DNA of 50,030 nt from a virus, in IMG/VR virus record IMGVR_UViG_3300025099_000033, positions 1-50,030 of that record, one strand, 5' to 3'. The notes beneath the pieces were generated by a model. It was not told where the DNA came from and made no database searches. It saw only the letters and a list, made by a program, of their open reading frames with translations. Positions 22,001 through 48,960 of the stretch are shown here, in pieces (the stretch's first letter is position 1; each line of letters begins with the position of its first letter). The position numbers and the translations under genes are program-made.

Positions 22001-24563
22001 TATCTAAGATTCTATATCTAGCTTTTTCTGATACAAACTTATTATTATCATGTTGTTTTTTAAGTATTAAATAAGTTTCTTCATCCACTTTATTTCTTTC
22101 AGCTGATGGAAATGATAACCAAATATTACCATCTTCTGCAAAATAAAATTTATCAAGAGCTAGGTTATAGTATTCACTAGAAGTTTCTTTTACAAAAAAT
22201 TTATAATGTGTTGCCCAATCAGGAGCATTATTTTGTAGCTGTACATTTATTCTATTTTTTGTTATACCAAAAGATTTTCCTAATTTAATGGATGATTTTT
22301 TTGAAGAAAAAACCGGACTTTCTCTTCCATATCTGTCAGAATAAGTTGTACCTATTTGATATGTTCTTAATGATTTAACTGATTTTTCACCTATTTTTTT
22401 ATTAGTAAAAGTTAAAACAGTATTTTCTTCTATATATACCTCTTCGGATCCATAATTACTTCCATCTTTATAATCATCCTTGTTTATTTTTGTTCTTACA
22501 AATATTGTTAATTCTTGATCTAATATGTTTTTTACAAAAGTATGTCTAGGCACTCCTTCACCTGTTATCAACATACCTATTTTAATTAAAGGATTAGAAG
22601 CTGATAAAGTAATTTTATTATTTTCTCCGGGATTAGATGAAGATACAACAGCTGTAATTTCTGTATCAGAAGCACTTTGTTCTACAGTTACATCAATGTC
22701 AGGAGTGTTTTGTTTTAATAAATTATAACCTTGATAATAATTTGCAAATATTAATCTGTTAGCTATAATTTCTTGAGCTTTTGCTTTTTTAGGTACATTA
22801 TCAAAAGGTCTTAATATTTGATTTGACTCTACTACTGCACCAAAACTTTCAGACAAAACAGAATAAGATGTTTCTCTATTTTTTAAAACATCTAACACAT
22901 ACACAACATTACTAACTGAATCTTTAACTAATATTTCAACTAACTCTACATCATTTGGTTGAGTATCAAAACCACCTAAAGAAAGTGTTCTTATAGAGTT
23001 TTTCATACCTATATTGTGACTTTCATCACTTTCATACAAAAACTCACTAGGTAAAAAAGCTACTTCAGAAAAAGGTGAAAATGTAGAATATTGACCTTCT
23101 TTATATTTCCATCTATAAGCAAATCTTACAAAACTATCTTCAAACAAAGGATCTTTTTCTTTTAATGTAGCAATCCAAGTAACAGATCCTAAATCTGGTA
23201 AGTTTAAATTTATTGTTTGTATAATAAAAGTTGCTGAATGAGTATCTGAATCAGGATATCCTTCAGTAATAATTTTAGAATTTATTAAACCTAATACTTT
23301 TACGGTTATTGTGTGTTTAGTTTCTTTAAAATTATCTAATTCAGTATGCTCTAATACTATAATATCATCTTTTATAAAATTAGCTTTATTGTCAAATTCT
23401 ATATCAAATTTAGACCCTGAAGTTAAAACAGATCCTCCACTATAAAAATTTTTTTCAATATATACAGGAGTACCACCTTCAATACCAGAGGAGCTTTGAG
23501 TTCTTTCAGTAGAAGACATTGTTAACGTGGGTGCTTTTAATGGAGATTGCTTAATTACAGTAATATCTTTTTCTGTAAAATCTGCATTATTAATTTGAGT
23601 GTGATAATTAAATGTACTAGAACCTTCTTTAAATTTAGATATTTTTATTAATTTAGGTTCGGTTTGATTATCTGTCCAAGATAACAATCCACTAATAACA
23701 TTTGCACCTGTTATTAAATATTCATCACTATATTTTAGTATGTTATTTTTATCAACCAGAACTGGTGATATTTCTCCTGTTGTACTATCAAACTCTGCAA
23801 TACAACTAACTTGAGATTTAAATGTTAATAATGCGTTGTCTTTTAATAGAGAGTTACTAGATAAGGTAATATTGTTTTGATTTGTGACTGTTGCTACTGT
23901 TACTTTACCAGATATTCCTGCACCACTAACGGTCATCCCTACTTCAATAGTGCCGGAATTATTATCAAGAACAATTGCTGTTCTTTTTGGAGTAAATGTT
24001 AAAGAGACATCATTAGATATAGTTTGAAGACTATCTATAAATATAACTTGTAATCCACCGTCTACTGAAGAAATAGCTGTTACTTTAACTTCACCAATAA
24101 TTCCTGTTCCTTCCACCACATCCCCAATACTAACAGTACCACTTATATTATCTATATTTATAGTAGAAGACTGATTTACTGTTGTATCATTAACTGAAGC
24201 TGTTGATATAGCAACATCTCCACTAATAGTTATTGATGCGGTGGCAGTAGACCCAGAAGATATAAACCAATATACTTTATCATTCTGAGGGTCGACAACA
24301 TATCCTATGCATTTAGGGTTTGTTAAGTCTTTTATTGAAGATGAGCTACTACCCCAATCAGTTAGTAAACCTGTACCACTATCAAAGCTTCTACCATCTT
24401 TTAAAGTATTACCTAAAACATTTTGAATAGACCCAACGTCAGATCCTTCAGAAGTAATTATTTCAATATTCTGAGCGTCTCTATATTCACCATTAGGTAT
24501 TAATCTTTCATCTAGATCTTTATTCATTCGACCTCTACGAAAGTGATGCTTTATATTTGCCAT
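16092..24563 (-). CDS. Giant 2823-aa tail nozzle ('muzzle'/tail-tube B-like) protein with repeated beta modules
   Basis: The N-terminus (HHFRRGRMNKDLDERLIPNGEYRDAQNIEI... VGSIQNVLGN) is characteristic of the nozzle or stabilisation proteins of short-tailed and crAss-like phages. About ten copies of a ~60-70-residue beta module are scattered between native segments; the best reads TALVVDG...VGDVVTGSGISGTVTV...TDQNNLVLSSAQS...LTFTP. The last ~700 residues are almost entirely Ser/Thr-rich Ig-like or beta repeats. Between copies lie ordinary nozzle-type stretches such as RIYARDADLITFCEDKILKVL and YVGEYGISRNPESFASHAFR. It should form the distal tail channel. At 2823 aa it is far longer than typical nozzle proteins, apparently because of module insertion. 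Confidence 0.85.
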   Translation of the reverse strand: MANIKHHFRRGRMNKDLDERLIPNGEYRDAQNIEIITSEGSDVGSIQNVLGNTLKDGRSFDSGTGLLTDWGSSSSSIKDLTNPKCIGYVVDPQNDKVYWFISSGSTATASITISGDVAISTASVNDTTVNQSSTINIDNISGTVSIGDVVEGTGIIGEVKVTAISSVDGGLQVIFIDSLQTISNDVSLTFTPKRTAIVLDNNSGTIEVGMTVSGAGISGKVTVATVTNQNNITLSSNSLLKDNALLTFKSQVSCIAEFDSTTGEISPVLVDKNNILKYSDEYLITGANVISGLLSWTDNQTEPKLIKISKFKEGSSTFNYHTQINNADFTEKDITVIKQSPLKAPTLTMSSTERTQSSSGIEGGTPVYIEKNFYSGGSVLTSGSKFDIEFDNKANFIKDDIIVLEHTELDNFKETKHTITVKVLGLINSKIITEGYPDSDTHSATFIIQTINLNLPDLGSVTWIATLKEKDPLFEDSFVRFAYRWKYKEGQYSTFSPFSEVAFLPSEFLYESDESHNIGMKNSIRTLSLGGFDTQPNDVELVEILVKDSVSNVVYVLDVLKNRETSYSVLSESFGAVVESNQILRPFDNVPKKAKAQEIIANRLIFANYYQGYNLLKQNTPDIDVTVEQSASDTEITAVVSSSNPGENNKITLSASNPLIKIGMLITGEGVPRHTFVKNILDQELTIFVRTKINKDDYKDGSNYGSEEVYIEENTVLTFTNKKIGEKSVKSLRTYQIGTTYSDRYGRESPVFSSKKSSIKLGKSFGITKNRINVQLQNNAPDWATHYKFFVKETSSEYYNLALDKFYFAEDGNIWLSFPSAERNKVDEETYLILKKQHDNNKFVSEKARYRILDISNEAPDFISQKLISSGKASCSTLSVNQPAVGSTFFQFNGPEASSNPSFSSAFRTESEIQISTDIPNPNQIATASVKSDISERNTLEVDGKQNTIRVGDQLTGDGIQNNPVVTKITNQDSTTASLVLSTNQTLDENVVITFIQAPARVSRKYKIESGGLSSNGTVYDVTLKDPIHESDEDVFASDLVSEGKDINVNIFRKTIEPKDEFFGRFFVKVSRDSTLDRNIIEVFPSVKSRFDVTKSETINSNLLNDFSNKDEGSEEPKQNFAWGDKDFGDVENTLGPVDTHPKKGSEFFQFYFGGIDIGEYGAKEDNLSVNVNPLITEITKPGALIQFSNDFGDKGQIYEVTGSSVKSEFRTYNATKKTWISGKRRLYKIFIRNQETGDLYDDGFNASAATSTSFGRINNISLVKKNIQIDDEKINSNNPAIFETEPKTKEGLDIYHEASNALPIIKAGMTVTGTNVGSGNSNVVESVVDGSNIELLNNTNGTMSSGTVLTFTDQDSIYSFTITTSGDVATSKSVVLADNQVHGQVNSLDWYNVFSFGNGVESNRIRDDFNTSFIDKGPIVSTTLNEDYKEEHKTNTFIFSGIFNSISGINELNQFLLALPITKDINPEYGTIQRIYARDADLITFCEDKILKVLANKDALFNADGNTNLTATSAVLGQAIPYVGEYGISRNPESFASHAFRIYFSDKARGAVLRLSRDGLTEISEKGMTDFFGDNLPLSTTILGSYDDDKGSYNITLNNQTISFDERVDGWTSFKSFIPEAGFSLNNIYYTYKNGDLYSHDSATRNTFYDTASPSSVKFIFNDFPESVKSFKTLNYEGSDSRKYTYGGTTSTAVVNGTITSSTALVVDGNSGTIVVGDVVTGSGISGTVTVTTVTDQNNLVLSSAQSISDGVTLTFTPVYGAGTTLEVLKKAGLSPDSIAALPEAETKGWFADSITTDQQTGSVRFFKEKENFKFNQILGDSTTSSNIDTKELSVQGLGFPSNISDSGTVTRTLTITPSITLLNFTISGSVTVESTSGVAIGAGKTAVFTITPNTGYVISASQVTGSSSLSKIASANESDTGTAGTASNTVEVTFNLVNEAIGGNVTIQPSIAVTTLSKIQYKVTGVFNTDEKNTQTSSVYNFGYSGSGDYYVNAIVNGLSTDNSPVLHNLTGNSLISANMAIIGSGVPDNALVKTITGANLTDLTIKDGTGADLNATIPDDTLLRFGKEIISRTFRADTGFEFRSAPTLDVLEEDESKFSDYTSSNDFVSTTSVVQSNVNNSVTVTLSASNSLIAVGMAVSGSGISSFTTVSVINSTTLTLSTAAKISANTTLSFFPTSVTLKVYYVFSSNNPTEDKILLTAKAEKTFLDFADEITGMEMSTKPVGARGETRFIRIFGRAGAKFKLTRFTTDTVNGAVAGSTTINLDNTNTAILSGMRIKGDNVQSGLRVSSASGSPTVVTASSSTTIADNTELTFSNFWNGKKFDVGDLSENLYSNPVQTIPSSGVYSIPVEYPANSTFRTFNYEVEAQEDTALATSFNGANPTSVNQTAEVTWTISPDVTLNSEVTASVVGSLGSTTDLNIDGQSGGNIVVGDVVTGTGISGVVTVAVVIDQDNLTLSDAQNLSNDTALTFTHANPTSTANQSITGISLSEPKELSKSGLVNFSFTITANDSTGNTFLSSSRSLTSDDFGFANTKRTVGAVGNGTTSVIDLTESVRNISIQANADKTLSSVVTGGTLPEGTFVSSKNDSDSLDLTLNHSSENSVSLAQNSISLNDTLTFSAPNDWIIEYSNIAGNIATGNNPNTYTITGVLEVIRFGTKSLTSTISLPSLLSVGGEGAAAPAPSNPTLTISGLYDSTSTNSGGTVKVKKLVTLGSGNGAENGDTISGSGQVLFRGDGNTVNDASITITASSRFTGGSSAPQISNIKFFDSSNTQLTGFDSLPSVTNTKATFDFAVTCNGDVVSTDTLRVTIKVTLNNAL
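19285..19500. repeat. Best-preserved copy of the beta module in the nozzle gene
   Basis: Encodes STAVVNGTITSSTALVVDG, then GTIVVGDVVTGSGISGTVTV, then TDQNNLVLSSAQS and LTFTP. It interrupts a native stretch (SDSRKYTYGG on one side, YGAGTTLEVLKKAG on the other). Other copies by sequence lie near 23820..24210 (two), 22560..22690, 21590..21790, 20500..20660, 18350..18570, 18030..18230, 17615..17790, 17130..17330 and 16690..16870. They are progressively diverged; edges are estimates by eye. Confidence 0.7.
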
Positions 24564-30476: not shown

Positions 30477-32558
30477 TTATCCTTCTAGAGTTTCTATTCT
30501 AGATTTAAGATCTTCTATAATAACTTGTTGCTCTTGGATTGCTTTGACTAATCCTACATAAATTGCATTTTTTTCCAAACCAAATCTTTGATCACCGTCA
30601 TAATCAAATTCCGATACTGATTCGGGAATTATCTCTTTTACTTCTTGAGCAATAAAACCAAATTGTTTCTTTGAGTTTTTATCTCCGTCTAACCAATTAA
30701 ATTTTACTGATCTTAATTTTAATATTTCAGATAATCCGTAATCAATATTTTCAATGTTTGTTTTTAATCTTGAATCAGATGGGTCAGTATTTGTTAAAAT
30801 TCCTGCTCCTGTCGAAAAAACATCACCACTTCCTAAATCATTTACTTTTACAGATGTTGAATACATTTGCCCTGTAATATTAACACCAGATGCTGTAATA
30901 TTTGCAGTATTTGTAGCACCAGCTGTAAATATCAGTGTATTATCACTATGAGTATATGTTATCCCACCTACATCAGTATCATCAGTATCTCCAAATTTAA
31001 CAGAACCTTGACCAGAGGTTGATGATACAATAGTCATTCCCACTGAAGCCACACCGGGATCAATAATAAAATCGTCTGCCACTGATTCTACACTAGTAGT
31101 ACCAGTTCCGCATCTAAGTGTACTATTTTGAACTAGTGTACCATTAGATTTAAGAGTCGTTCTATTTGTTAAACTCGCATTATTTCCAGTGGGTTTAGTA
31201 CCAAAAACAATATCCATACCTCCTGCATCTGCTCCAAACGCTTCTGCTGCCTGAACTTTAATTTCAGCACCAACAGTTATAGCATCACTTCCATCTGATT
31301 CATCTGGAGCTTGAAATTGCATTTTACCTATGGCATTTTCTGAGGCAATTGCTGTTTTACTTGTTTGAAAAGTAAGTACTGCTGCATCAGCAACAGTATT
31401 TTTTAATATAACACCTTTATTGTGCTCGTGTTTTAAAGTAACATCTCCATTTGCACCAAAAACAAATCCTTTATCATCTGCACTTGTTGCTATATCACCA
31501 TTTTCTACTACTAAATTTCCTCCACTACCAGAAGCACCAAAAGTAAATGCTTGATTACCATTAGTGTAAATTCTTATTTCACCTCCATTACCAGATGATG
31601 AAATACCAGACTGACCAGTCGCTAAAGCAGTTCCTTCAAACTCTATTCCTTGTGTAGAAATTACAACTCCATCAGCTTCAATTTTTAAAGCATCAGCATC
31701 AGTGGCAGACCCAATCGTACCAGCATCTGGTATTTTAATGTTACCTGCAAAAGTTGCATTTTGACTAGCACTTATACTTAATGCTAAAGTAGCACTATCA
31801 CCATCATTATTTCCACCATTATAAAACTCCATTACACCGCTAGAGCCTCTAATTTCTAAGTCATTACCACCAAGTTTGATATATGAGTTGTACTCAGTAC
31901 CACCTGTTTGTGTAAGCTGAAGAGTAGGTGTTGAACTTTTACTTATTTGGACATCTCCTCCTTCAAAAGTTGCATCACCTGCAAAAGTTACATCACCTCC
32001 AGATCCTATTGTCATCGCACTAGTTGCACTAGTATGACCTATTGTTGTGCCATTTATAATAATATTATCAACTGTTAATGTTGTAAGTGTACCAAGTGAA
32101 GTAATATTACTTTGTGCTGCACCAGTTACTGTAGCTGCTGTCCCAGATGCATTTCCTGTAACATTACCTGTTAATGGTCCAGCAAAAGCATCAGCTGTTA
32201 CTGTACCATCAAAAAATGCATCTTTAAACTCTAAGGATGAAGTGCCTAAATCTATTTGATTAGTAGTTGCTGGAGCTAATACAGAAGAAGTTAGTGTTAA
32301 TCTATTTGCATTATCTACTTTAAAATCTATTTCATTAACTGTACCAAAATCAATAGCAGTTTGTGCATCTTCACCTATAATAAGATCAGTGGCAAGTATA
32401 GAATTAATATTTGTTTGTGCTGCTGTTAACACTTGACCAGTAAGGTTACCAGTAACATTACCAGTGACGGTATTTATAAACGCTGTAGACCAACGCTTTG
32501 CTGTTACACCAATCCCACCTTCTCCGTTATCGTTAGGTACTATGTTCTTTGTTGCCAT
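30477..32558 (-). CDS. Fibre with S74 intramolecular chaperone, likely head or capsid fibre
   Basis: The 693-aa protein is built of beta-helix-like Ala/Gly/Thr-rich stretches (residues ~30-590, e.g. GNVTGNLTGQVLTAAQTNIN). It ends at 594-693 with an S74 chaperone domain: SDSRLKTNIENIDYG, then [15 protein letters not shown] and a final coiled coil (EQQVIIEDLKSRIETLEG). S74 domains fold trimeric fibres and cleave themselves off before the SD pair. It is encoded between small head proteins and the scaffold, far from the tail genes, which fits a head fibre; that is inference. Receptor or glycan binding is expected. Confidence 0.85.
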   Translation of the reverse strand: MATKNIVPNDNGEGGIGVTAKRWSTAFINTVTGNVTGNLTGQVLTAAQTNINSILATDLIIGEDAQTAIDFGTVNEIDFKVDNANRLTLTSSVLAPATTNQIDLGTSSLEFKDAFFDGTVTADAFAGPLTGNVTGNASGTAATVTGAAQSNITSLGTLTTLTVDNIIINGTTIGHTSATSAMTIGSGGDVTFAGDATFEGGDVQISKSSTPTLQLTQTGGTEYNSYIKLGGNDLEIRGSSGVMEFYNGGNNDGDSATLALSISASQNATFAGNIKIPDAGTIGSATDADALKIEADGVVISTQGIEFEGTALATGQSGISSSGNGGEIRIYTNGNQAFTFGASGSGGNLVVENGDIATSADDKGFVFGANGDVTLKHEHNKGVILKNTVADAAVLTFQTSKTAIASENAIGKMQFQAPDESDGSDAITVGAEIKVQAAEAFGADAGGMDIVFGTKPTGNNASLTNRTTLKSNGTLVQNSTLRCGTGTTSVESVADDFIIDPGVASVGMTIVSSTSGQGSVKFGDTDDTDVGGITYTHSDNTLIFTAGATNTANITASGVNITGQMYSTSVKVNDLGSGDVFSTGAGILTNTDPSDSRLKTNIENIDYGLSEILKLRSVKFNWLDGDKNSKKQFGFIAQEVKEIIPESVSEFDYDGDQRFGLEKNAIYVGLVKAIQEQQVIIEDLKSRIETLEG

Positions 32559-36021: not shown

Positions 36022-38235
36022 TTATTGTTTTATTAATTTAGATGACATTCCCTTGTTTTCATACTTAGCAAAGCCAATATTAAATTTTGTTTTTTCTTTT
36101 CTTACAGTTGGTGTGTATAAATTTCTATTACAAGCCATTACAGCCAAACCACTACTTATTGATGCATCAAATCTAGTTCTATTATTTATATCAAACTTAG
36201 ACCAATCATTCAATGTTTTATTAAAAAACATATTACCATAACTACCGTTTGGTGTTGCACCAACATAATTTTGTATGTACATTTCAATAGCAGCAGCATG
36301 TGCTTGCTTCATGTCTTCACTAGAATTAGGTATGCCACCTATTTCTTTTTCTGTTACAGATAATTTATTCCAAATTCTATCTGGTCTATTCATAGAGTAA
36401 CCTCTATACCCCCTTCTTTTTAAATAATAAAGAAGTCTTGGTTTGTTGTTTTCTGCAAGTATAGGCATACCATAAAATACTAATGCCATTAATACATCTT
36501 CAAAAAATATTTCAGCAGTCTGAGGTCTAGCTATATATTCTAAAAAAAATTTATTTGGTGGAGCATCCTCCATAGAAAACTTTGTTAATCCATGTAAAGC
36601 TCCCTTAGAACCTTGACCGTCAACAGTGCCAGATATATCATAACTATCACATCCAAAAGCACCTATATGTTCGTTACCGGGTTTTTTACCATTACTAGCT
36701 TCTATTACTTTGTTTTGCAAATGACTTGGTGGTACCCAACTAATATTAAACCTACCTTTTGGATCTGGATAAAATATTACTTTTGAATCTTTTATACCAT
36801 TCACCCATTGAAAATTACCTGTAGTTATGGAGACATTATTTTCCATAACTTCATTATAATCTATTTGCTCGTATATTTTTGTTAAGTTAAATATACTGTT
36901 TTTTGTTTCATCTCTAAAGGCATGTTCTTCTGTTCTAGGGAACTGTCTGTAAAATTCATTTAGTGCATCAGGATCATTTTTTAATCCATCAACTTCATTT
37001 TGCCAGTGTTCTAATATACCTATGTCTATGTAATCCCCATAAGGTCCTTTAACTTCTTTTTCAGGTGTATCAAATACTGGCTGACCGTATTCATCAATAA
37101 ACCCTTCGTAATTCCATTCCATAGGAATAAAAAGGCTATAAAGCCCAGAACTAGTCTGCCCATTTCTATTTCTTTTGGTGACATCAGAATCTCTGTATAA
37201 TTTTTTAAAATTACCACCACCTTTATCTGATGAGTTACATGTACTACCCATCATACATTTACCTATAACTCTACTACCTAACCTTAAGGTTGTTTTTGTA
37301 ACTCTCCAGTTGTTGAGGATGTTGTTTGGCTTCTCCCACTTCCCTGATTCATCATGTATGAGGAGTTTAAGTTTCTCCCCATCGTAGGAGTTATCTCCTG
37401 TATTTTTCCAGTCGATTGTGGTGTCCAAGCCTTGTAAATCTTCTGGTTTGTCTGTGCTCGTGATACTCCGTCTGGTAAGTTTTGATGCTGGTACTCTGAA
37501 TGCAAGTTCTGTTTTAGGTCTATCCATACCGTCTTGGATCGGTTTGAAGAAGAACGGATAGTTGACGGATATTGGCACCACTTTGTCGGTGAACATTTTC
37601 TTAGCATCGGGACCGGACTTGGACAAAATCCCGTAGCGTGCATCACTGGATATTGTTGCCAGATTAACGGTTTCACCACTTGCCATGAAAGAGAACCCTG
37701 ACCGTCTATTCTTAAGGTAACACATTCCATAACATCGAAAATCGGCTTTACAGGCTTCCCAAAAGATGTAGAATAATCTATTGGCTTCACGAAAGTCTGG
37801 CTTGCCGACATCAATTTTACTCCATTGCAAGTACATGTAATGAGTACCAGTAATATAAGTAGGATTACTGTTGTTATAGTACCATAAGCCTTCCTCTCGA
37901 ATTTTGAACTCATTCTCTATATATTCTATGTATTTTTCTTTAAAATCATTAGGGTATTCTTTCCAATCAAATATTGTTTTTATCTTATTAAGCTCTTTAG
38001 GATATTCAGTATACTCCCACTTATTACTTTTAAACTTAATAACATTATTTTGTTTTGGTAAGGCTATCTTGAGATTTTGTATCTCATATATCTCCCCAAT
38101 CTGACCGGTCTTACTAATTACAACAACATCGTGTTCTTTGTTATAACCATACCCCCATTTTTTAGACTTGTTAAGTCTTGTTATTGTATTTAATTTAATT
38201 GGAGTTACAACCTTATATAAGGTTTGTTTGTACAT
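36022..38235 (-). CDS. terL: Terminase large subunit
   Basis: The 737-aa packaging motor has an ATPase domain and an RNase H-like nuclease. The Walker A place is degenerate (LKNRRSGFSFMASG, ~174-187), as in crAss-like terminases. Walker B is LKLLIHDESGKW (D296-E297), with a coupling-motif candidate at MGSTCN (329-334). Nuclease carboxylates fit D530 (AFGCDSYDISGT), E579/D580 (IFFEDVLMA) and D690 (RFDASISSGLAVMA). It follows a 150-aa gene by 1 bp and runs into portal. Bases ~37290-37860, residues ~126-315 (the whole ATPase core), have noticeably higher GC and different codon choice than the rest of the gene. Confidence 0.92.
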   Translation of the reverse strand: MYKQTLYKVVTPIKLNTITRLNKSKKWGYGYNKEHDVVVISKTGQIGEIYEIQNLKIALPKQNNVIKFKSNKWEYTEYPKELNKIKTIFDWKEYPNDFKEKYIEYIENEFKIREEGLWYYNNSNPTYITGTHYMYLQWSKIDVGKPDFREANRLFYIFWEACKADFRCYGMCYLKNRRSGFSFMASGETVNLATISSDARYGILSKSGPDAKKMFTDKVVPISVNYPFFFKPIQDGMDRPKTELAFRVPASKLTRRSITSTDKPEDLQGLDTTIDWKNTGDNSYDGEKLKLLIHDESGKWEKPNNILNNWRVTKTTLRLGSRVIGKCMMGSTCNSSDKGGGNFKKLYRDSDVTKRNRNGQTSSGLYSLFIPMEWNYEGFIDEYGQPVFDTPEKEVKGPYGDYIDIGILEHWQNEVDGLKNDPDALNEFYRQFPRTEEHAFRDETKNSIFNLTKIYEQIDYNEVMENNVSITTGNFQWVNGIKDSKVIFYPDPKGRFNISWVPPSHLQNKVIEASNGKKPGNEHIGAFGCDSYDISGTVDGQGSKGALHGLTKFSMEDAPPNKFFLEYIARPQTAEIFFEDVLMALVFYGMPILAENNKPRLLYYLKRRGYRGYSMNRPDRIWNKLSVTEKEIGGIPNSSEDMKQAHAAAIEMYIQNYVGATPNGSYGNMFFNKTLNDWSKFDINNRTRFDASISSGLAVMACNRNLYTPTVRKEKTKFNIGFAKYENKGMSSKLIKQ

Positions 38236-38236
38236 A

Positions 38237-38626
38237 TTATCCTGCTGTGAAATAAGCGTATTCTAATAATATAGTGTGGCTACCAGAAGATTGAACATTT
38301 ACAACTACACTTGATTTAGATGGAAAAAACGCAAATTCTCCTGCAGCAATTCTAAGACCTTCTGTTGAGGTAAATAAAACTGATAATTGATTCGTAGTTG
38401 CAGTAGTTCCATCACCTTGAAATCCTGTGTGACTTATATAAACATATTGATTAGCGGAACCTGAAGGAACAAGTGCTACAACTGATCCAGTACTAGCTTC
38501 AGCAGTTATTTTAGAAATACCTACAATTGGAGCAACTACTGTTAATGAATCCGTTACAGAAAAACTTAATGTATCTGAAGTTACATCTGTACTCGCTAAT
38601 GTTAATGTGGGTGTTAATGTTGCCAT
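38237..38626 (-). CDS. Small beta-rich, Ser/Thr-rich virion protein
   Basis: I place the start at 38626 (MATLTPTLTLASTDVTSDTL), 7 bp after the upstream stop; the longer reading from 38689 overlaps it. The 129-aa protein is all beta and Thr/Ser/Val-rich, and ends HTILLEYAYFTAG. Similar short proteins occur among head and decoration genes in marine phages. It precedes terminase by 1 bp. No family name is certain; a virion role is inferred from position. Confidence 0.7.
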   Translation of the reverse strand: MATLTPTLTLASTDVTSDTLSFSVTDSLTVVAPIVGISKITAEASTGSVVALVPSGSANQYVYISHTGFQGDGTTATTNQLSVLFTSTEGLRIAAGEFAFFPSKSSVVVNVQSSGSHTILLEYAYFTAG

Positions 38627-38633
38627 GTTTTTT

Positions 38634-38912
38634 TTATTTAGATCTTTTTTCTGCAAAACCACTAAATGATACACTTTGATTTGTATCAAATGGTATTTTG
38701 TTTTCTATTATGTTTTCTTCTTCTTCTATTCTTTTAAGTATTTCAAACGCATCAAAGATAGCTAATTTTTTTGTTGCAGCAGCATTTTTTAATCTATCTG
38801 CTGATATATCATCATCTGAATCAACAATAGCTTCTTTAGCAACTTTAATTAATTCCTCAACTGCTACTTGCCCAGCTTGGATTATACTCTTCTTCGTTTC
38901 CTTGATATTCAT
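38634..38912 (-). CDS. Helical protein, possible small terminase subunit
   Basis: The 92-aa protein is almost wholly helical (KKSIIQAGQVAVEELIKVAK, DISADRLKNAAATKKLAIFD, AFEILKRIEEEENIIENK) and ends FSGFAEKRSK. The DRLKNAAATKKLAIFDAFEI stretch is a recurring sequence in marine phages, usually just before the large terminase, where the small subunit that recognises DNA lies. Two genes before terminase is consistent with that role, but no DNA-binding fold can be proven here. It overlaps the upstream 201-aa gene by 56 bp. Confidence 0.65.
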   Translation of the reverse strand: MNIKETKKSIIQAGQVAVEELIKVAKEAIVDSDDDISADRLKNAAATKKLAIFDAFEILKRIEEEENIIENKIPFDTNQSVSFSGFAEKRSK

Positions 38913-39462
38913 ATTTAATTGTAATTTGACTAGTTAAAACTCTATACAGTCTTTCACCGTCAATAATAAATTCATAAGTGCTCGCAGGTGTAAACCCAAC
39001 TAAGTCACCTTCTTTTAATCCAAACTTTAAAAGTGCTTTGTTGCTTTGTTTTAAAACACCTACACATTCTTTTTCTTTATCTGAAGAAAACTTATCTGTA
39101 GACTTTATAGGTTTTACAAAACAAAACCCATCTGTAGCAATCCATTTATCACCTCTTTTGTAAGAAAATATTTGATCTTCTTTTACACAATAAGTGTTTT
39201 CATCTATATAACTTCTACTATTTTTTTCTTCAGCTTTAACATTATGCCATCTCCTGAATATATTATGATGAACTATTACTTCATCTCCAACTTGTATTTT
39301 AGTAGGTATTACTATAGGAATTGATTTAACTATAGCTTTTCTACTAACATATTGATGATTATATATTTCTGTATTAAGTATAAGGTCTTTACCTTCTACT
39401 TTTTTAGTATTGTTATATCTAGAAGTTTTAGGTGATATAATAAAATCATATACACTTTTCAT
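38857..39462 (-). CDS. Putative tandem Cpn10-like (co-chaperonin-fold) protein
   Basis: The 201-aa beta protein looks like two co-chaperonin-type halves. Half 1 (~23-103) has KAIVKSIPIVIPTKIQVGDE, VIVHHNIFRRW and YCVKEDQIFSYKR. Half 2 (~111-186) has GFCFVKPIKS, CVGVLKQSN, GLKEGDLVGFTP, YEFIIDGERLYRVLTSQITI. Both follow GroES order: a VKP-type strand, a G-x-V turn, VGD-x-V, then a final DI/QI strand. A separate, normal groES is present at 46975. The halves share the pattern but little identity, so the fold call is inference. It follows the 74-aa gene and overlaps the small-terminase candidate. Confidence 0.6.
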   Translation of the reverse strand: MKSVYDFIISPKTSRYNNTKKVEGKDLILNTEIYNHQYVSRKAIVKSIPIVIPTKIQVGDEVIVHHNIFRRWHNVKAEEKNSRSYIDENTYCVKEDQIFSYKRGDKWIATDGFCFVKPIKSTDKFSSDKEKECVGVLKQSNKALLKFGLKEGDLVGFTPASTYEFIIDGERLYRVLTSQITIKYEYQGNEEEYNPSWASSS

Positions 39463-39683
39463 TAATATTCTAGGTTATACTCTACAGATATAGCCATGTT
39501 TTTATTAAAGTTTTTCCAAATAATTACATCATTATTTTTTTTAATGTAAATATCAAAACCTTCATCTTCTTCAATTATATCACAAATTTTATGCCCTCCA
39601 TAAACTTCTTGACCCACAGAGTAATGCATAGATTCATTTTTATAATCTTTGCCAATACTAATTTTACGTATTAATTTACCCAT
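39462..39683 (-). CDS. Small conserved-type phage protein
   Basis: The 73-aa protein starts at the second ATG of a pair (39683 or 39686): MGKLIRKISIGKDYKNESMHYSVGQ, then GGHKICDIIEEDEGFDIYIKKNNDVIIWKNFN. It looks like a compact beta protein with a G-Q-x-V-Y-G-G turn, of a type I have met between structural genes of marine phages; no function is known. It overlaps the 81-aa gene by about 8 bp upstream and ends at the start of the 201-aa Cpn10-like gene. Confidence 0.68.
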   Translation of the reverse strand: MGKLIRKISIGKDYKNESMHYSVGQEVYGGHKICDIIEEDEGFDIYIKKNNDVIIWKNFNKNMAISVEYNLEY

Positions 39684-39921
39684 CACCTTTTTCTATTGGA
39701 GTTATAGTACCGTTTTCAATGTTTATATTTACTTCACCGTACTCTTCCTCTAGTTTTAATTGAAAATCTCTAAGATTTTTTTGTACTTCACCTATTTGAT
39801 GAAGTATCATGTGTTTTTGAGTTTCTATTTGACCAATTTGTGATTGACCATTATTAATTTGTTTAACTAAAGTTTGTATTGACTCTAACTCTTCTTTTTT
39901 TATTTTTTTTACTTTACTCAT
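39676..39921 (-). CDS. Small coiled-coil protein
   Basis: The 81-aa protein is one long helix (residues ~8-60: EELESIQTLVKQINNGQSQI, GQIETQKHMILHQIGEVQKN, LRDFQLKLEEEYGEV) followed by a short strand pair (NINIENGTITPIEKG). This shape is widespread in phage genomes as a structural or assembly accessory protein of unknown function. It follows the DUF285 adhesin gene across a 65-bp AT-rich gap with no clear signal, and overlaps the next gene. Confidence 0.72.
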   Translation of the reverse strand: MSKVKKIKKEELESIQTLVKQINNGQSQIGQIETQKHMILHQIGEVQKNLRDFQLKLEEEYGEVNINIENGTITPIEKGDG

Positions 39922-39986: not shown

Positions 39987-42008
39987 TTAAGTATGTGTTC
40001 CATCACCATCTGTTATTGTCCATCCTCTACCAACTAATGTTGTTCTAGCATTTTGACCTGCAGTATCTGTTAGTTGAGCACTACCAAAGTGTGCTATTAC
40101 ATTACTTTGTGTTGATTGTGCTGCCCAACCTATAATTGTAGCTTTATAGTTAGCATTTGAAAGAGCAGAGCCATTAAACATGTTTGCCATATCTGTCACA
40201 TCTGCTATGTCCCAACTAGCAAGGTTTTGATTAAAAGAAGAAGCTCCACTAAACATTTCTCTCATATTTGTTACCTTTCCCACATTCCAACTACTTATAT
40301 TTTGATTAAAAGAAGTATTGCCTTTAAACATTTCTCTTGTAGTTGTAACATTACTTACATTCCAAGAACTAATGTCTTGATTAAACGGAGTGCTCTCAAA
40401 CATTCCTAACATGTCTGTTACACTACTAACATCCCAACTAACAATATTCCCATTAAAAGAAGAAGCTCCACTAAACATTTCAAACATATCTGTCACACTA
40501 CTTACATTCCAAGAGTTAATATTTTGGTTAAAAGAAGTGCTTCCAAAAAACATTCTATTAGCATTAGTAAGGTTACCTACATTCCAAGAATTAATATCCT
40601 GATTAAAAGAAGTAGCTCCAGAAAACATTAATGACATATTTGTAACTTGACTAACATTCCAAGAACCTATATCTTGATTAAAGGCAGTGGCATTTATAAA
40701 CATTTGATTCATATTTGTTACGCTGCTTGTATTCCAAGAACCAATGTCTTGATTAAAAGAGGGAGCAATAAAAAACATATCTGACATGTCTGTTACACTG
40801 CTTACATTCCAGTCACCAATCCCTTGATTAAAAACACTTGCAGTTGAAAACATTCCATGCATATTAGTTACACTACTAACATCCCAACTACCAATACTTC
40901 CATTGAAGGCAGATGCTCCATTGAACATATCTGAAGTATTTGTTACATCTGCCATATCCCATCCATTTAATGTCTGATTAAATGCTCTAGCAGTTTCAAA
41001 CATAGAAGCGGTATTTGTAACACTACCCATGTTCCAAGAATTACAGGGTTGATTAAAGACAGTTGCTCCTTTAAACATTTCTGTAGTAGTTGTAACATCT
41101 GCCATGTCCCAAGAATTAATGCTTTGATTAAAAGCAACTGCATCCTTAAACATGTAAGATGTATCTGTAACTGACCCTGTATTCCAGCTATTTATGTCTT
41201 GGTTAAAAGCAGAAGCTTCATTAAACATTCTACTCATATTTGTAACATTACTAACATCCCAAGAGCTTATGTCTTGGTTGAAAGAGGTTGCCTGCATAAA
41301 CATTTGCGACATATTTATTACATTACCCACACCCCAACTAGAGACATTGCTATCGTTAAAATTTGTTAATGCTTCAAAACATGAATTTAACTGAGCACTA
41401 CTTTGAAATCCCGGTGTATCACTAGCACTTATATTTAAGCTTGTACTTGCACCTTTTAATTTTAAAAATTTCCATTTTGTATTACCCCAAGCGGTTATAT
41501 CTGTTATATTAAAATTATCAAGATTATTAAACCCCGGAAATGATGAAGGATTTGATGGAGTCATATTACCATTATATGTACTCACTGATGCACCACCACT
41601 ATTATCTGCTATAGTTCTAGTAAGATCGCTATTACTAGTTACGTTTGTTGTAGCACCATCACCCCAAGTCCAAACAGCGTTATAGTCACTTGAACTACCT
41701 GCTAAATCTATATCTGCGGCATAAGTGCTACCGGCAGGAAAAGTATAAGTGAATGAAAATGGTGTGCCAGAAAGTGGATAGCCTCTATACTGATCAGATT
41801 TTGTTATTTGACTTAAATTAGTTATAGTTCCACCTGCATGATCAGGGTCAAATAAACTTACATCTGAAGCTGCAATTAACTCAGAAAACTGAGTATCTCC
41901 ATCTACAGCCCCATTATTACCTTGATCTATTGCACCTTGTATGGTAGTAGTGTCACTACCATCTGTAGGACCAAACATACTAAAATTTCCACTAGTAGGT
42001 ACACCCAT
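39987..42008 (-). CDS. Tail-adhesin-like protein with 16 DUF285/BspA-type repeats
   Basis: The 673-aa protein has an N-terminal Gly/Ser/Thr-rich portion (to ~210) with a beta-sandwich-like stretch ([31 protein letters not shown]). Residues 215-614 hold 16 tandem ~25-residue repeats of consensus FNQ-D-I-x-S-W-(D/N)-V-x-x-V-T-N-M-x-x-MF-x-x-A. The C-terminus is of the BspA type ([33 protein letters not shown]). DUF285 repeats are leucine-rich-like surface modules known from Bacteroidota and Mycoplasma. In a phage they would form an extended binding rod. It follows the S74 fibre gene by 1 bp, suggesting one cell-binding unit. Confidence 0.88.
40167..41366. repeat. Tandem 75-bp coding repeats (16 copies) in the adhesin gene
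   Basis: Each ~75-bp unit encodes FNQ...W(D/N)V...VT...MF. Fourteen units are exactly 25 codons; the first is 26 and the thirteenth 24. The units are similar but none identical, so copy loss or gain by recombination is possible. These are coding repeats, not a CRISPR array. Confidence 0.85.
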
Positions 42009-42009
42009 G

Positions 42010-44223
42010 TTACTTAAATTTTTCCTCTATAGATGTTAATCTTTTTTCAAGTTCAAGTATTGCTTTGTGCATGTGAGCTACAACACTTCTATCACTCATA
42101 GATAAATAGCCTTCATTATTTTCATAAACTGCATGAGGGATTACCTCTTTAACTTCTTGAGCTATAAATCCAGATTCTTTTTCACCACCTTTAATATAAT
42201 TATAAGATGTGAACTGTTTTATGACTTCAATACCTTCTTTTATTGGTTCTATTTCAGACTTTAATCTTCTATCCGATGTAGTTATAAAATTAGATGCTGT
42301 AGCTGTTGAATGGACAAATAATTTTTCAGCTATACCTACACCTCCATCAACAATTAAAGCTCCTGTAGTTTTAGATGTAGTGCCAGTGGTGTCATCTATA
42401 TTTAAAACACCTGTAACCGTTAGATTATCACTAACTGTTGTTTGTGATGTTGTATGACCTATTGTTACAGCTGTACCAGATGTTACACCTAATAATATAG
42501 ATCCAGCACCAGAACCACTATTTAATGCATCTATAGTTAATGTTTTAGCACTACTACTATTAGCAGTCATTGTTATATTGGTGGTATCGGTTGAGTCTAT
42601 AGATAAAGTTGTTGTATCTATTGTTGCTGCACTTGAATTTACATCTAAACTACCAGTGGTAGTAAGTTCTATGGTTCCAGATCCAGAATTAATATCTATA
42701 CCATCTGAATCAATAGTTGCGGCTCCTGTGGCATCTAAGTCAAATGTTGTTCCAGCACCCATAGCTATACCACCAGCATCAGATAGTAATTCTACACTAT
42801 TGCCAGCTGTGCTTTGATCAGCGTGTATTTTAATGGTTTCTGAAGTACCACCGTTAGCGTGAAGTTTTATTGCATTAGCTGCATTTTCTGTAGAAGAAAT
42901 ATTAACTGAAGATCCAGTGGCTGTAATGTCAATATCTTCTCCGGCTGCAGCACCCGATGCTAAAATATCTATACCACCTGCTGTAGATTCTATTTTAATT
43001 GAATCTGAAGTGCTTTCACTAGAAGTTATATTAACTGCTGACAATACACCAGATATATCTATATCTTCACCTGAAGCTCCTCCATTTGTAATATCAATTC
43101 CACCAGCTGTAGTTACAATTTGTAAGGCATCTGCTGCTGTTCCTGAAGAAGATAGTATTAACGATGAATCTGTTGCACCTGCTAATGATATTGTAAAATC
43201 TTCAGCTGCACCATCTGTTGTTGATGTTATGTTTGCTGCTACTCCAGTATTATCAATAGATAATCCAACACTATCTATTTCAACAGCACCGTCAGTATCT
43301 ACATCTAGCTTTAATGCTGCATCTACATTTATACCTCCACCAGTTGATCTTAAATAAATAGCATCTGCGTCACTTTCTGTAGATGTAATATTTACTGAAG
43401 ATCCAGTTGCTATTATATCAATATCTTCTCCTGCAGCTGCACCTGAAGCTAAAACATCTATACCACCTGCAGTTGCTTCAATTACTATAGCATCACTACC
43501 ATTACCTGTAGCATCTATATCTATTTTAGCAGAATTAATTTCAATTTCATCATCAGCATCAATATCTAATTTACCATCTGCACTAGCATGTATAGACCCT
43601 TTACTACTATGAAACTGCAACTTATCAGTTGTACTAACAGTTAATGCTGCAGAGCTATGAGTTAAACTCATATTACCATTACCGAATCCTATAACTGCAC
43701 CAGAAGCTAAAAACAAATCACTAAAAGCAGTTCCTGCTTCACCTAAAACTGCACCATCATTTGTTGCAGGCTTTAATACATCATTAGCAATTATTAAATC
43801 TAAAGATCCTTCAGTTGTAAATTCTATCTGATTATCTGTAGTAAAACAAATTTTGTTATCACTATCTCTACCTACACATAGACCAGTGTTTAATATGCTT
43901 GTGATTGTTGTTTGTAAGGGATTTACTTTTATTGTGGGGGTTGCGCCTTCTCCTGAGTTGTTTAGGAGTTGTATGCCATCACCAGCTACTAAGGATTCAA
44001 CGTAGCTACCTGAAGTTCCGCTACCTAGTGTTACATCTGGGAAAGTTACACTTGATACGCCTGATGAGTTTATTGTAATAGGACCAGATATACCGGAAAA
44101 TATAAATTCTTTTAAATCTTGTAGTTTAAAGTTTTTTGTAGCTGTATCACTAGAATCTGTACCAATTACTTTATCGGTATTTGACAATGTTCCATCAAAA
44201 TCGTAGGTTGATATTCTAGCCAT
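42010..44223 (-). CDS. Tail fibre with repeated beta modules and S74 chaperone
   Basis: The 737-aa protein has a probable attachment N-terminus ([20 protein letters not shown], then [15 protein letters not shown]). A repetitive acidic Ala/Ser/Thr/Asp body (~200-600) carries copies of [20 protein letters not shown]-type units alternating with VNISSTE and LDVD pieces, suggesting a trimeric beta-helix. Residues 650-737 form an S74 chaperone ([28 protein letters not shown], then a terminal coiled coil). Bases ~43905-44075, encoding the segment with [20 protein letters not shown], have higher GC than their surroundings. It lies between the holin-like gene and the DUF285 adhesin; receptor binding is inferred. 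Confidence 0.87.
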
Positions 44224-46974: not shown

Positions 46975-47232
46975 CTATTCTACCAAGACAACATCTTGTG
47001 CTCTTATAATTTTATAAAGGGTGTCTCCATAGCTAATACCATGTCCTGCATGCTTGTCATAGTATACTATGTCTTTATCATTGACACCCTCGACCTTACT
47101 GCCGCAGCTGATAACCTTAGCTCTAACGTAACGATTATCTAGGTCTGTCTTTTCTGTGAAAATAAGTCCAGCAATCTTTTTCTGTTCTTCTTTGATATCA
47201 CTTACTATCAAATAAAAATTAATTGCTTTCAT
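46975..47232 (-). CDS. groES: GroES co-chaperonin
   Basis: The 85-aa protein follows the GroES plan: strand FYLIVSDIKEEQKKIAGLIF, a mobile loop around GLIFTEKTDLDNRYV, then AKVISCGSKVEGVNDKDIVY, YDKHAGHGISYGDTLYKIIR and the closing QDVVLVE. It caps the GroEL ring so virion proteins can fold inside. It starts inside the end of groEL (14-bp overlap), so the order is groEL-groES, reverse of the usual bacterial operon. The short length is within the co-chaperonin range. Confidence 0.85.
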   Translation of the reverse strand: MKAINFYLIVSDIKEEQKKIAGLIFTEKTDLDNRYVRAKVISCGSKVEGVNDKDIVYYDKHAGHGISYGDTLYKIIRAQDVVLVE

Positions 47233-48784
47233 TAGTCCTCATATTAGATATCACACAATCTGCAGATATAATGGTGGATACCACACTAACTGCATTCTTC
47301 AAAGCTGTTTTAGTTACAAGTACGGGATCTATGATCCCACCCTTAATCATGTTAACATGCTTACCAGATACTACATTGAAGCCCCAACCTTCTTTTAAAG
47401 GTTCAACAGAATCTTCAATGCTTGCATTTTCTAATATAGTTTCATAAGGTGCACGAATGGCACGTAATAAAATATTTTCACAGTCGTTAGAAGGTAGTAT
47501 TTTTTGTGAGGCATTTAACAGCGCAATACCCCCACCAGATATAATACCTTCTTTTAATGCTGCCTTTACAGCATATATTGCATCTTCGACCCGATCCTTT
47601 TTCTCTTTCATTTCAACTTTAGAATCAGCACCTACTCTTACAATACCGACAGATCCAGATAGTATACTTAGTCTATCTTGCAGTTTCTTTTTAAGAAACC
47701 CATCTTTTTCTTTTTCTATTTTCTTTTCTACTTCAGTAATTCTTTCTTCAATATCATGATTAATATCTTTAATCTTTAACACTGTATTTTTAGAATCTGT
47801 AACTGAAGTTAATACCTCACCTAAACAGTCAGGTTGTATTAAATCTAAATCATCACCTAATTCTTCATTTATAACTTTAGCCCCTGTAAGTATGGCTAAG
47901 TCATCAATAGTATCATTTTTATAAGGTCCGAATCCCGGTAGGTCAATAATATTAACATTAATATTCCCTTTCACCTTATTCATCGTTAAAGCTGTTTGTA
48001 CTTGTTGTGCAACTGGTGCTACAATAAGTAAAGCTTTTTTATGTTTTATAACATGCTCTAGTACAGATTGTATCTTCCTAATACTTGTTATTTCTGAAGA
48101 TACTATTAATACTAGTGGGTTTTCTAAAACTGCAGTCTCTCTATCCTTATCAGTTACAAAGTAACTGGATGTTAAACCACATTCTATCTGCACCCCCTCA
48201 ACACTTTCAACATAAGTATTGTTATCCTCCGATTCTTCCATTAGCACTACACCATTCTTACCTACGATGCTGTAAGCTTCTGCTATTGTTTTACCAAGAG
48301 TAAGGTCATTGTTACAAGATATCGAAGCTACACTATCTAGCATGTTATCTTTAACTTCTATACTTTTCTTGTCAAGATATTCATTTACTTTTTTAAGTGC
48401 AGAGTCTATACCTTGCTTTATTTGTCTGACAGTTTTAACTGACTTAACACAATTAGCTTCTCTCATAAGGGATTCGGCAAGTACGATAGCTGTTGTAGTA
48501 CCGTCACCTGCCTCCCTCACTGTATTCCTAGAAGCCTCTTTAATAAGAGTTGCTCCTATATTCTCCATTGGATCAAACAAGACAACCGATTCCGCTACGG
48601 TTACTCCGTCTTTTGTGATCACTGGTTTACCTCTAGCATCTTCATAAATTACACATTTACCAGATGCACCTAGAGTAGACTTAACTGCTTTAGCAAGTTT
48701 ATCTACTCCAGCTGATATTTTGCTGTTAGCTGAATCACCAAAGTTTAAATCTTTGACAATCTCACTAGGTTGACTGTATTCCAT
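47219..48784 (-). CDS. groEL: GroEL chaperonin
   Basis: The 521-aa ring-forming ATPase folds proteins. ATP-site motifs are present: ITKDGVTVA (D59, E. coli D52), AGDGTTTAIVLAES (D94, E. coli D87), and the RVEDAIYAVKAALKEGIISGGGIALL block holding the catalytic Asp (D398 equivalent). The apical and intermediate domains lie between. It ends SNMRTNESN, lacking the Gly-Gly-Met tail of bacterial GroEL. The start is preceded by a repeated ATTTA-type leader (taaattaaattaaatt). It is likely used for capsid or giant-protein folding together with groES. Confidence 0.93.
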   Translation of the reverse strand: MEYSQPSEIVKDLNFGDSANSKISAGVDKLAKAVKSTLGASGKCVIYEDARGKPVITKDGVTVAESVVLFDPMENIGATLIKEASRNTVREAGDGTTTAIVLAESLMREANCVKSVKTVRQIKQGIDSALKKVNEYLDKKSIEVKDNMLDSVASISCNNDLTLGKTIAEAYSIVGKNGVVLMEESEDNNTYVESVEGVQIECGLTSSYFVTDKDRETAVLENPLVLIVSSEITSIRKIQSVLEHVIKHKKALLIVAPVAQQVQTALTMNKVKGNINVNIIDLPGFGPYKNDTIDDLAILTGAKVINEELGDDLDLIQPDCLGEVLTSVTDSKNTVLKIKDINHDIEERITEVEKKIEKEKDGFLKKKLQDRLSILSGSVGIVRVGADSKVEMKEKKDRVEDAIYAVKAALKEGIISGGGIALLNASQKILPSNDCENILLRAIRAPYETILENASIEDSVEPLKEGWGFNVVSGKHVNMIKGGIIDPVLVTKTALKNAVSVVSTIISADCVISNMRTNESN

Positions 48785-48852: not shown

Positions 48853-48960
48853 TTACTTCTTCTTTTTCTTCATCAACATCATTGGTGATTTCTTCTTCAT
48901 CATTGTCATTGGTGACTTTTTTTTCATCATCATCGCTGGTGACTTCTTTTTTTTCATCAT
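48853..48960 (-). CDS. 35-aa Lys/Met-repeat mini-protein (KKKSPM repeats)
   Basis: A short ORF read directly from sequence: MMKKKKSPA, MMMKKKSPMT, MMKKKSPMML, MKKKKK. It consists of three tandem ~9-10-residue units with the motif M-M-K-K-K-S-P and a basic tail. Lys/Met KKKSP proteins are a small basic type seen in marine phage late regions, as I recall. The repeats are also visible as ~33-bp DNA repeats (catcattggtgac-like). It is located 20 bp upstream of the terminator. Function unknown; perhaps DNA condensation. Confidence 0.6.
   Translation of the reverse strand: MMKKKKSPAMMMKKKSPMTMMKKKSPMMLMKKKKK

Follow-up and report, generated by a model that had tools for sequence, protein, structure and literature searches.

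The window is a virus record in its entirety, 50,030 bases long, and carries on its minus strand a 673-aa ORF with an ATG start (39987..42008), the complete gene of a DUF285/BspA-like LRR protein. Upstream the gene adjoins an S74 fibre of 737 aa (42010..44223, minus strand; PF13884, Peptidase_S74, E = 9.7e-12), as the first-pass annotation had noted in placing the repeats next to such a fibre in a phage tail region; GroES and GroEL (46975-48784, minus strand; Pfam PF00166 and PF00118) also lie upstream. Terminase and portal are positioned downstream, and the large terminase subunit (36022..38235, minus strand; phrog_6681, E = 2.4e-170) served as the query for finding relatives. Two small ORFs of 81 and 74 aa (39462..39921, minus strand), with orthologs in most relatives, bound on the terminase side the slot that the LRR gene occupies. 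A second S74 protein of 693 aa (30477-32558, minus strand) lies beyond the terminase-portal block on the other side, giant ORFs encoding 2567 and 2823 aa span 5413-13116 and 16092-24563 (minus strand), and a 27-bp tandem repeat of 3.7 copies is found at 48862-48960. No tRNA was found in the 50,030-base window.

The phage is short-tailed and marine, and is kin to phages of Flavobacterium and Cellulophaga. Its terminase matches 87 phage records, all at 80% identity or less, and 86 of these are phages of Flavobacteriia (68 of Flavobacterium, 15 of Cellulophaga, 2 of Tenacibaculum and 1 of Maribacter); the one match with no assigned host is Manatee Spring phage, at 61.7% identity. The GroES/GroEL pair is kept in many relatives, in Manatee Spring phage and in the elemo phages of Flavobacterium. 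From the terminase kinship and the shared GroEL/GroES pattern we infer a flavobacterial host.

The viral contigs compared with the window, labeled here with L-numbers (L007, L091 and so on), were gathered by the terminase scan and by searches with the whole LRR protein, its anchor and its cap. An ortholog in the same neighborhood is present in ten distinct viral genomes: the window, L007, L089, L090, L091, L181, L182, L184, L185/L186 and L188. Redundant contigs were dropped, namely L087, L098, L180 and L192 (one contig equal to the window save 2 differences in 13,528 nt), L088, L099, L187 and L193 (the L007 contig), and L100, L183 and L194 (the L090 contig), and L185 was replaced in counts by its near-copy L186. 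A 150-aa ORF beside the terminase (38237-38689, minus strand) is only 51-61% identical in relatives whose neighboring 92-aa ORF is 90-100% identical, is 95-97% identical in L182 and L186, and is present in two copies in L090; it seems to be another exchanged gene.

The 673-aa protein matches Pfam DUF285 (PF03382) at E = 1.8e-257 (838.2 bits, cut-off 25) and, over nine stretches, NCBIfam TIGR02167 at E = 3.3e-46 (154.4 bits, cut-off 30), a family currently named PARCEL repeat-containing surface protein. Pfam returned DUF285 plus one sub-threshold match and nothing else. The N-terminal anchor (aa 1-78; 41775..42008, minus strand), of low-confidence fold, is followed by a beta-rich neck (aa 79-224; 41337..41774, minus strand). 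The neck carries WGDG and W-G-N-x-x-W motifs common to cellular BspA-like proteins, matches no Pfam family above its cut-off and exists as two strongly different alleles within the phage group. Next comes the array (aa 225-616; 40161..41336, minus strand), made of 16 LRR-like units, and the protein ends in a cap (aa 617-673; 39990..40160, minus strand) predicted to be alpha/beta. The sixteen Trp-initial units are spaced at 25 aa, with one spacing of 24, and one degenerate unit stands ahead of them (CF at aa 210). Tandem Repeats Finder reports a 75-bp period with 9.9 copies at 40212-40948 and two shorter arrays alongside. These domain matches, units and period confirm the sixteen DUF285/BspA repeats of ~25 aa, encoded as ~75-bp tandem units, that the first-pass annotation had read from the DNA. 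The repeats make up ~58% of the ORF, the remainder being anchor, neck and cap. Across nine of the proteins, W1, F13 and N20 are invariant in 86 of 86 25-aa units, and the entropy of the unit ranges from ~0 at positions 1, 13 and 20 to 2.7-3.5 bits at positions 10, 11, 14 and 15. At the nucleotide level the units of the window array have diverged, with a median identity of 0.65 and 0.79 for the best pair.

Structure prediction makes an LRR solenoid fold likely, because the model of the L091 ortholog matches LRR proteins and Foldseek finds viral models of BspA-family proteins (from jumbo phages and an Aureococcus virus). AlphaFold2 gave a pLDDT of 66.2 for the window protein (5 sequences) and a mean of 74.7 for L091 (9 sequences); the anchor falls below 50 in both models, which disagree on strand placement. 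VIA-align of the L091 model returned LRR proteins throughout, the best being plant RPP1 (Z 21.4, 332 residues, rmsd 3.0), followed by Leptospira LRR proteins and an internalin. With Foldseek, neither model had a PDB match at E<=0.001, and a PDB sequence search with the LRR protein gave antibody-chain noise and no relative. The array had earlier been described as a rod, a term that suits it less than well: the L091 model resembles an LRR solenoid, a fold that is usually curved.

Comparison with cellular proteins divides this architecture in two. The anchor appears to be specific to phages, while neck, repeats and cap resemble parts of cellular surface proteins. The anchor had no match among 50,697 phage records, its profile matched 0 of 77 cellular ORFs at E<0.1, and outside the group no convincing kin emerged (best E 0.55 for phage ORFs and 0.18 for cellular ORFs). 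The neck profile, by comparison, matches 11 of the 77 cellular ORFs. A search that started from the cap gave, as its best 77 cellular loci, 51 from Bacteroidota, 13 from Pseudomonadota, 3 from Promethearchaeota and others. All five Bacteroidota relatives scanned end in Por_Secre_tail, a T9SS sorting domain, which is absent in two relatives from other phyla and, by Pfam, from the window LRR protein. The phage has thus mounted on an anchor of its own what is, in cellular surface proteins, the outer portion of the design.

This resemblance raises the question of origin, and the first-pass annotation had proposed that the donor might be the surface-protein pool of the host. A recent capture of this kind fits the Bacteroidota majority (51 of 77 best cellular loci), this being the inferred host phylum, and the sharing of neck, repeats and cap with cellular proteins. 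The search for close DUF285 relatives did find cellular ones, but across the cap region the best of them, a record labeled Alphaproteobacteria, reaches only 53% identity, and recent donation by the host lacks support. In a tree of the cap the five phage rows form one set, with the nearest cellular row at path 1.4. A host origin could not be read from this tree (82 rows, 96 columns), in which 50 of 78 inner branches are open and only the phage set is firm. The arrays themselves point the same way. The order of unit tails, given as the last seven residues of successive units (FNQSINS, FNQPCNS, FNQTLN-, FNG-IG-, FNQG-G-), recurs in all five proteins with the first of two anchor types, and FNQSINS and FNQTCNS tails occur in all but one (L182) of the five proteins in the second group. 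Because this order recurs, even the diverged arrays are homologous in register proximally, and they have the look of alleles that separated long ago within a single lineage, not of recent acquisitions. Since the phage arrays keep a common unit-tail order while the best cellular identity is 53%, any capture would be old, and we consider a recent one unlikely.

Across relatives, the slot between GroEL/GroES and terminase holds different large ORFs. Among the 80 listed of 599 confirmed terminase stretches, which do not include L181-L188 and hence amount to no census, 50 reach the slot, and a DUF285 ORF is there in 1 of 50 (L007). Laminin_G_3, a lectin-like family, is found in 2 of the 6 slot ORFs scanned from terminase relatives (L038 and L031, the latter scanned over its first 1036 residues only). 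A more distant pair, L092 and L093 (terminase 64%), has in the slot a 947-aa DUF285 protein that lacks the window-type anchor. In L101, whose terminase is 91% similar, an anchor 55% identical to that of the window carries an unrelated 218-aa protein without DUF285. For a receptor-binding protein one would expect a slot in which lectin-like and LRR modules can replace one another, and likewise a fixed anchor with an exchanged recognition module, seen here both in L101 and in the array exchange described below. Separately, gp37 of Elemo phage (NC_055852; L102 3347-3820), considered as a syntenic relative and annotated as DUF285 domain-containing, was rejected: neither it nor gp36 has a Pfam match at E<=0.1. 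Its start resembles that of the S74 fibre anchor, and the DUF285 name looks wrong.

The anchor also covaries with its neighbor. Anchor type 1 is paired with an S74 fibre of 724-737 aa in 5 of 5 cases, and anchor type 2 with a short protein of 180-241 aa that has the same start as the S74 fibre (4 of 4 with a full 5' end). The short proteins of L181 and L184, the two scanned, retain the S74 domain, and L101 is an exception to the pairing. Contact between the two proteins is a possible explanation, as is plain linkage.

These observations bear on whether the LRR protein is part of the particle. One could suppose that the infected cell, and not the virion, bears it on the surface, for example to bring about superinfection exclusion. 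Its cellular relatives are surface proteins, with the sorting domain in all five Bacteroidota ORFs scanned, which is in keeping with such a role. The phage protein, however, lacks Por_Secre_tail, its Pfam content being DUF285 and a sub-threshold match, its anchor is phage-specific and is borne by a different module in L101, and its gene adjoins the S74 fibre. Display on the host cell thus strikes us as improbable. The label of adhesin given at first pass is plausible.

Evidence for exchange within the gene comes first from the comparison of the window with L091. Silent divergence (dS) is 0.02 in the anchor, 0.02 in the cap and 0.94 in the array; in nucleotides, 4 of 234 positions differ in the anchor and 3 of 171 in the cap, against 181 of 654 in the array and 81 of 435 in the neck. 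Downstream, identity returns to 97% in a 201-aa protein, 100% in a 92-aa protein and 96% in terminase. Two further pairs repeat the pattern. For L182 and L186, dS is 0.08 in the anchor, 0.09 in the three downstream genes and 1.01 in the array. For L089 and L090, dS is 0 in both anchor and neck, 0.01 in the downstream genes and 0.36 in the array, nearly all of it distal; sliding identity is 0.97-1.0 to codon 320, drops to 0.67-0.72 over codons 480-600 and is 0.95 at the cap end. In the window, units 1-7 each have a counterpart in L007, in the same order and at 0.89-0.99 identity, and units 9-15 have no ortholog there, with dS of 0.07 for units 1-4, 2.0 for units 9-12 and 0.28 for the cap. The pattern of fixed ends and divergent array is clear only among such close relatives; against L181-L186, even the anchor of the window has a dS of 0.81-0.94.

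Near-zero silent divergence flanking a near-saturated stretch does not readily arise from point mutation, and this points to the array having been swapped by recombination between nearly fixed ends. The S74 fibre shows a replacement of its own, at codons ~120-360 between the window and L091 (identity 0.52-0.68, with most of the rest at 0.86-1.0). Together with the LRR array, this S74 stretch shows more exchange than any other part of the two adhesin genes. No donor of the array was found, units 8-16 of the window having no partner above 0.80 identity. A search for a diversity-generating retroelement found RVT_1 (PF00078) in 0 of 5 records, all of them possibly incomplete.

Array exchange also bears on a suggestion made at first pass, that copy number might change by slippage. 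The number of units does vary among related phages: the window has 16, L007 and L089 15 each, L090 14, L182 12, and L091, L181, L184 and L186 9 each (L188, whose 5' end is cut and whose anchor is missing, was excluded). The first-pass annotation had held constant copy number together with an absence of host-like relatives to be contrary to its reading, and neither was found. The proposed mechanism fares worse than the variation itself. Slippage or phase variation of the 75-bp units, altering adhesin length within a population, could draw on this range of 9-16 units and on a genuine 75-bp tandem period. It would be expected to leave near-identical neighboring units and length ladders. The best nucleotide identity between units of the same array is 0.77-0.81 in five arrays, arguing against recent duplicates, and length changes coincide with divergent, replaced arrays. 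Moreover, L185 and L186 are equal in length, with a single difference in 1530 nt, and three copies of the repeat gene in cyanophage ACG-2014f all measure 1128 nt while differing at 3 to 8 positions. In the few pairs compared, then, near-identical copies have equal length and unit number holds steady over short times, and we give slippage very little credence. For a fourth ACG-2014f copy, L238 (KJ019111), the annotation shows two overlapping ORFs in place of one 26-residue repeat gene, possibly the result of a frameshift.

Superimposed on the exchange of whole segments is change at particular positions within units that have stayed in register. Counting only units of 25 aa and ortholog pairs of at least 0.79 identity, we compared 19 orthologous unit pairs (window-L007, 7; L089-L090, 6; L181-L186, 6). 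Of 41 residue changes, 28 fall on positions 8, 10, 11, 14 and 15. These positions were picked after viewing the alignments, and the shuffle of positions within units accordingly selects its own best five; over 5000 shuffles the count averages 17.0 and never exceeds 23. Each of the three genome pairs is individually significant (Fisher 8e-5, 8e-6 and 3e-4), and when the positions are chosen from two of the pairs (the first and second), they account for 7 of 12 changes in the remaining one and for 13 of 19 in L184-L186. In the L184 pairs, 30 of 38 changes are at hot positions. Position dependence of change is therefore strong.

At the five hot positions dN/dS is 1.46 (dS 0.144), a value resting on few silent changes and not demonstrably above 1, versus 0.17 at the other 20; in the L184 pairs the values are 0.95 and 0.08. 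Positive selection at the hot positions is suggested by these ratios. The main alternative is that the hot positions reflect relaxed constraint on solvent-exposed residues and that array exchange is ordinary neutral recombination. A dN/dS near 1 in the L184 pairs is what relaxed constraint would give, and variable hydrophilic positions are a family-wide trait for which the excerpted text of PMC2996958 leaves neutrality open. Yet positions 22 and 24, which vary between units (2.2-2.3 bits), show 0 changes in the 19 ortholog pairs, and exchange is greatest in the LRR array and the S74 stretch of two adhesin genes; both points speak against neutrality. Relaxed constraint with neutral exchange remains a serious contender, although we lean against it.

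Taken together, we regard it as probable that the protein is a virion-attached LRR receptor-binding adhesin, diversified by array exchange and by change at polar positions. Its location on the virion, its binding to the host surface and selection as the cause of its variation are what we infer from these comparisons. Under this model, aa 1-78 would attach the protein to the particle, aa 79-224 would form the beta-rich neck, and the 16 units would build an LRR-type solenoid capped by the last 57 aa. Whole arrays or distal halves would recombine between the nearly fixed ends, with unit number changing as a consequence, and in units that remain in register the residues at polar positions 8, 10, 11, 14 and 15 change fast. 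The adhesin would bind a host surface structure. A more ambitious version, in which a pool of LRR arrays recombines between two fixed ends much like the parts of a modular recognition receptor, diversifying selection acts on four or five exposed residues per unit, and the array sets host range by reading host surface variants, is one we offer only tentatively.

DUF285 proteins occur widely, and little is known of what they do. Fixed ends with a swapped array suggest that the repeats serve as a recognition scaffold, on which the hot positions would be the residues most likely to contact a ligand, and the phage version could provide a test case for DUF285 function in Flavobacteria. If the reading is correct, an LRR-based class would be added to the receptor-binding proteins of phages.

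The closest known design is that of the DUF285/TIGR02167 (PARCEL) BspA-like bacterial surface proteins, which likewise consist of a neck, a cap and a 25-aa repeat with hydrophobic core positions and variable polar ones; the window protein differs from them in its phage-specific anchor and in lacking the T9SS tail. Roske et al. (2010; PMC2996958), in the excerpted text, describe the PARCEL family with variable hydrophilic positions and likely horizontal spread, and an amphipathic repeat with variable hydrophilic positions is found in the phage units. Dyad symmetry of the coding DNA, in an assay without a positive control, was not above column-permuted or codon-shuffled nulls in 6 of 6 phage arrays, and 8 of 8 cellular control arrays were likewise not above the column-permuted null; the PARCEL authors used MEME.

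The presence of DUF285 in phages is not new. Matches occur in 112 of 50,697 phage records, all less than 60% identical to the window protein, and jumbo phage and cyanophage proteins, pir03 ORF 200 and the 26-residue repeat protein of ACG-2014f, belong to the same repeat family in tailed phages. The ACG-2014f gene lies directly after tail collar genes. For jumbo phage vB_VhaM_pir03, the excerpted text of PMC7765460 reports DUF285 in ORF 200 with no definite function assigned and states that PARCEL had not previously been described in phages. The open-licence literature, which leaves out most subscription journals, yielded no phage adhesin whose DUF285 array is swapped while the ends stay fixed. 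By analogy only, the arrangement recalls the variable lymphocyte receptors of jawless fish, in which LRR modules lie between caps. Variable residues are likewise borne on a repeat scaffold, but the phage has no somatic assembly and no evidence of a dedicated mechanism. Nearer to phage biology are metaviromic islands and variable tail-fibre tips, for which the excerpted text of PMC3909814 describes variable recognition genes in marine phages with a fixed N-terminus and a variable recognition part. The window protein likewise has a fixed N-terminus, but its variable part is an internal LRR array held between two fixed ends.
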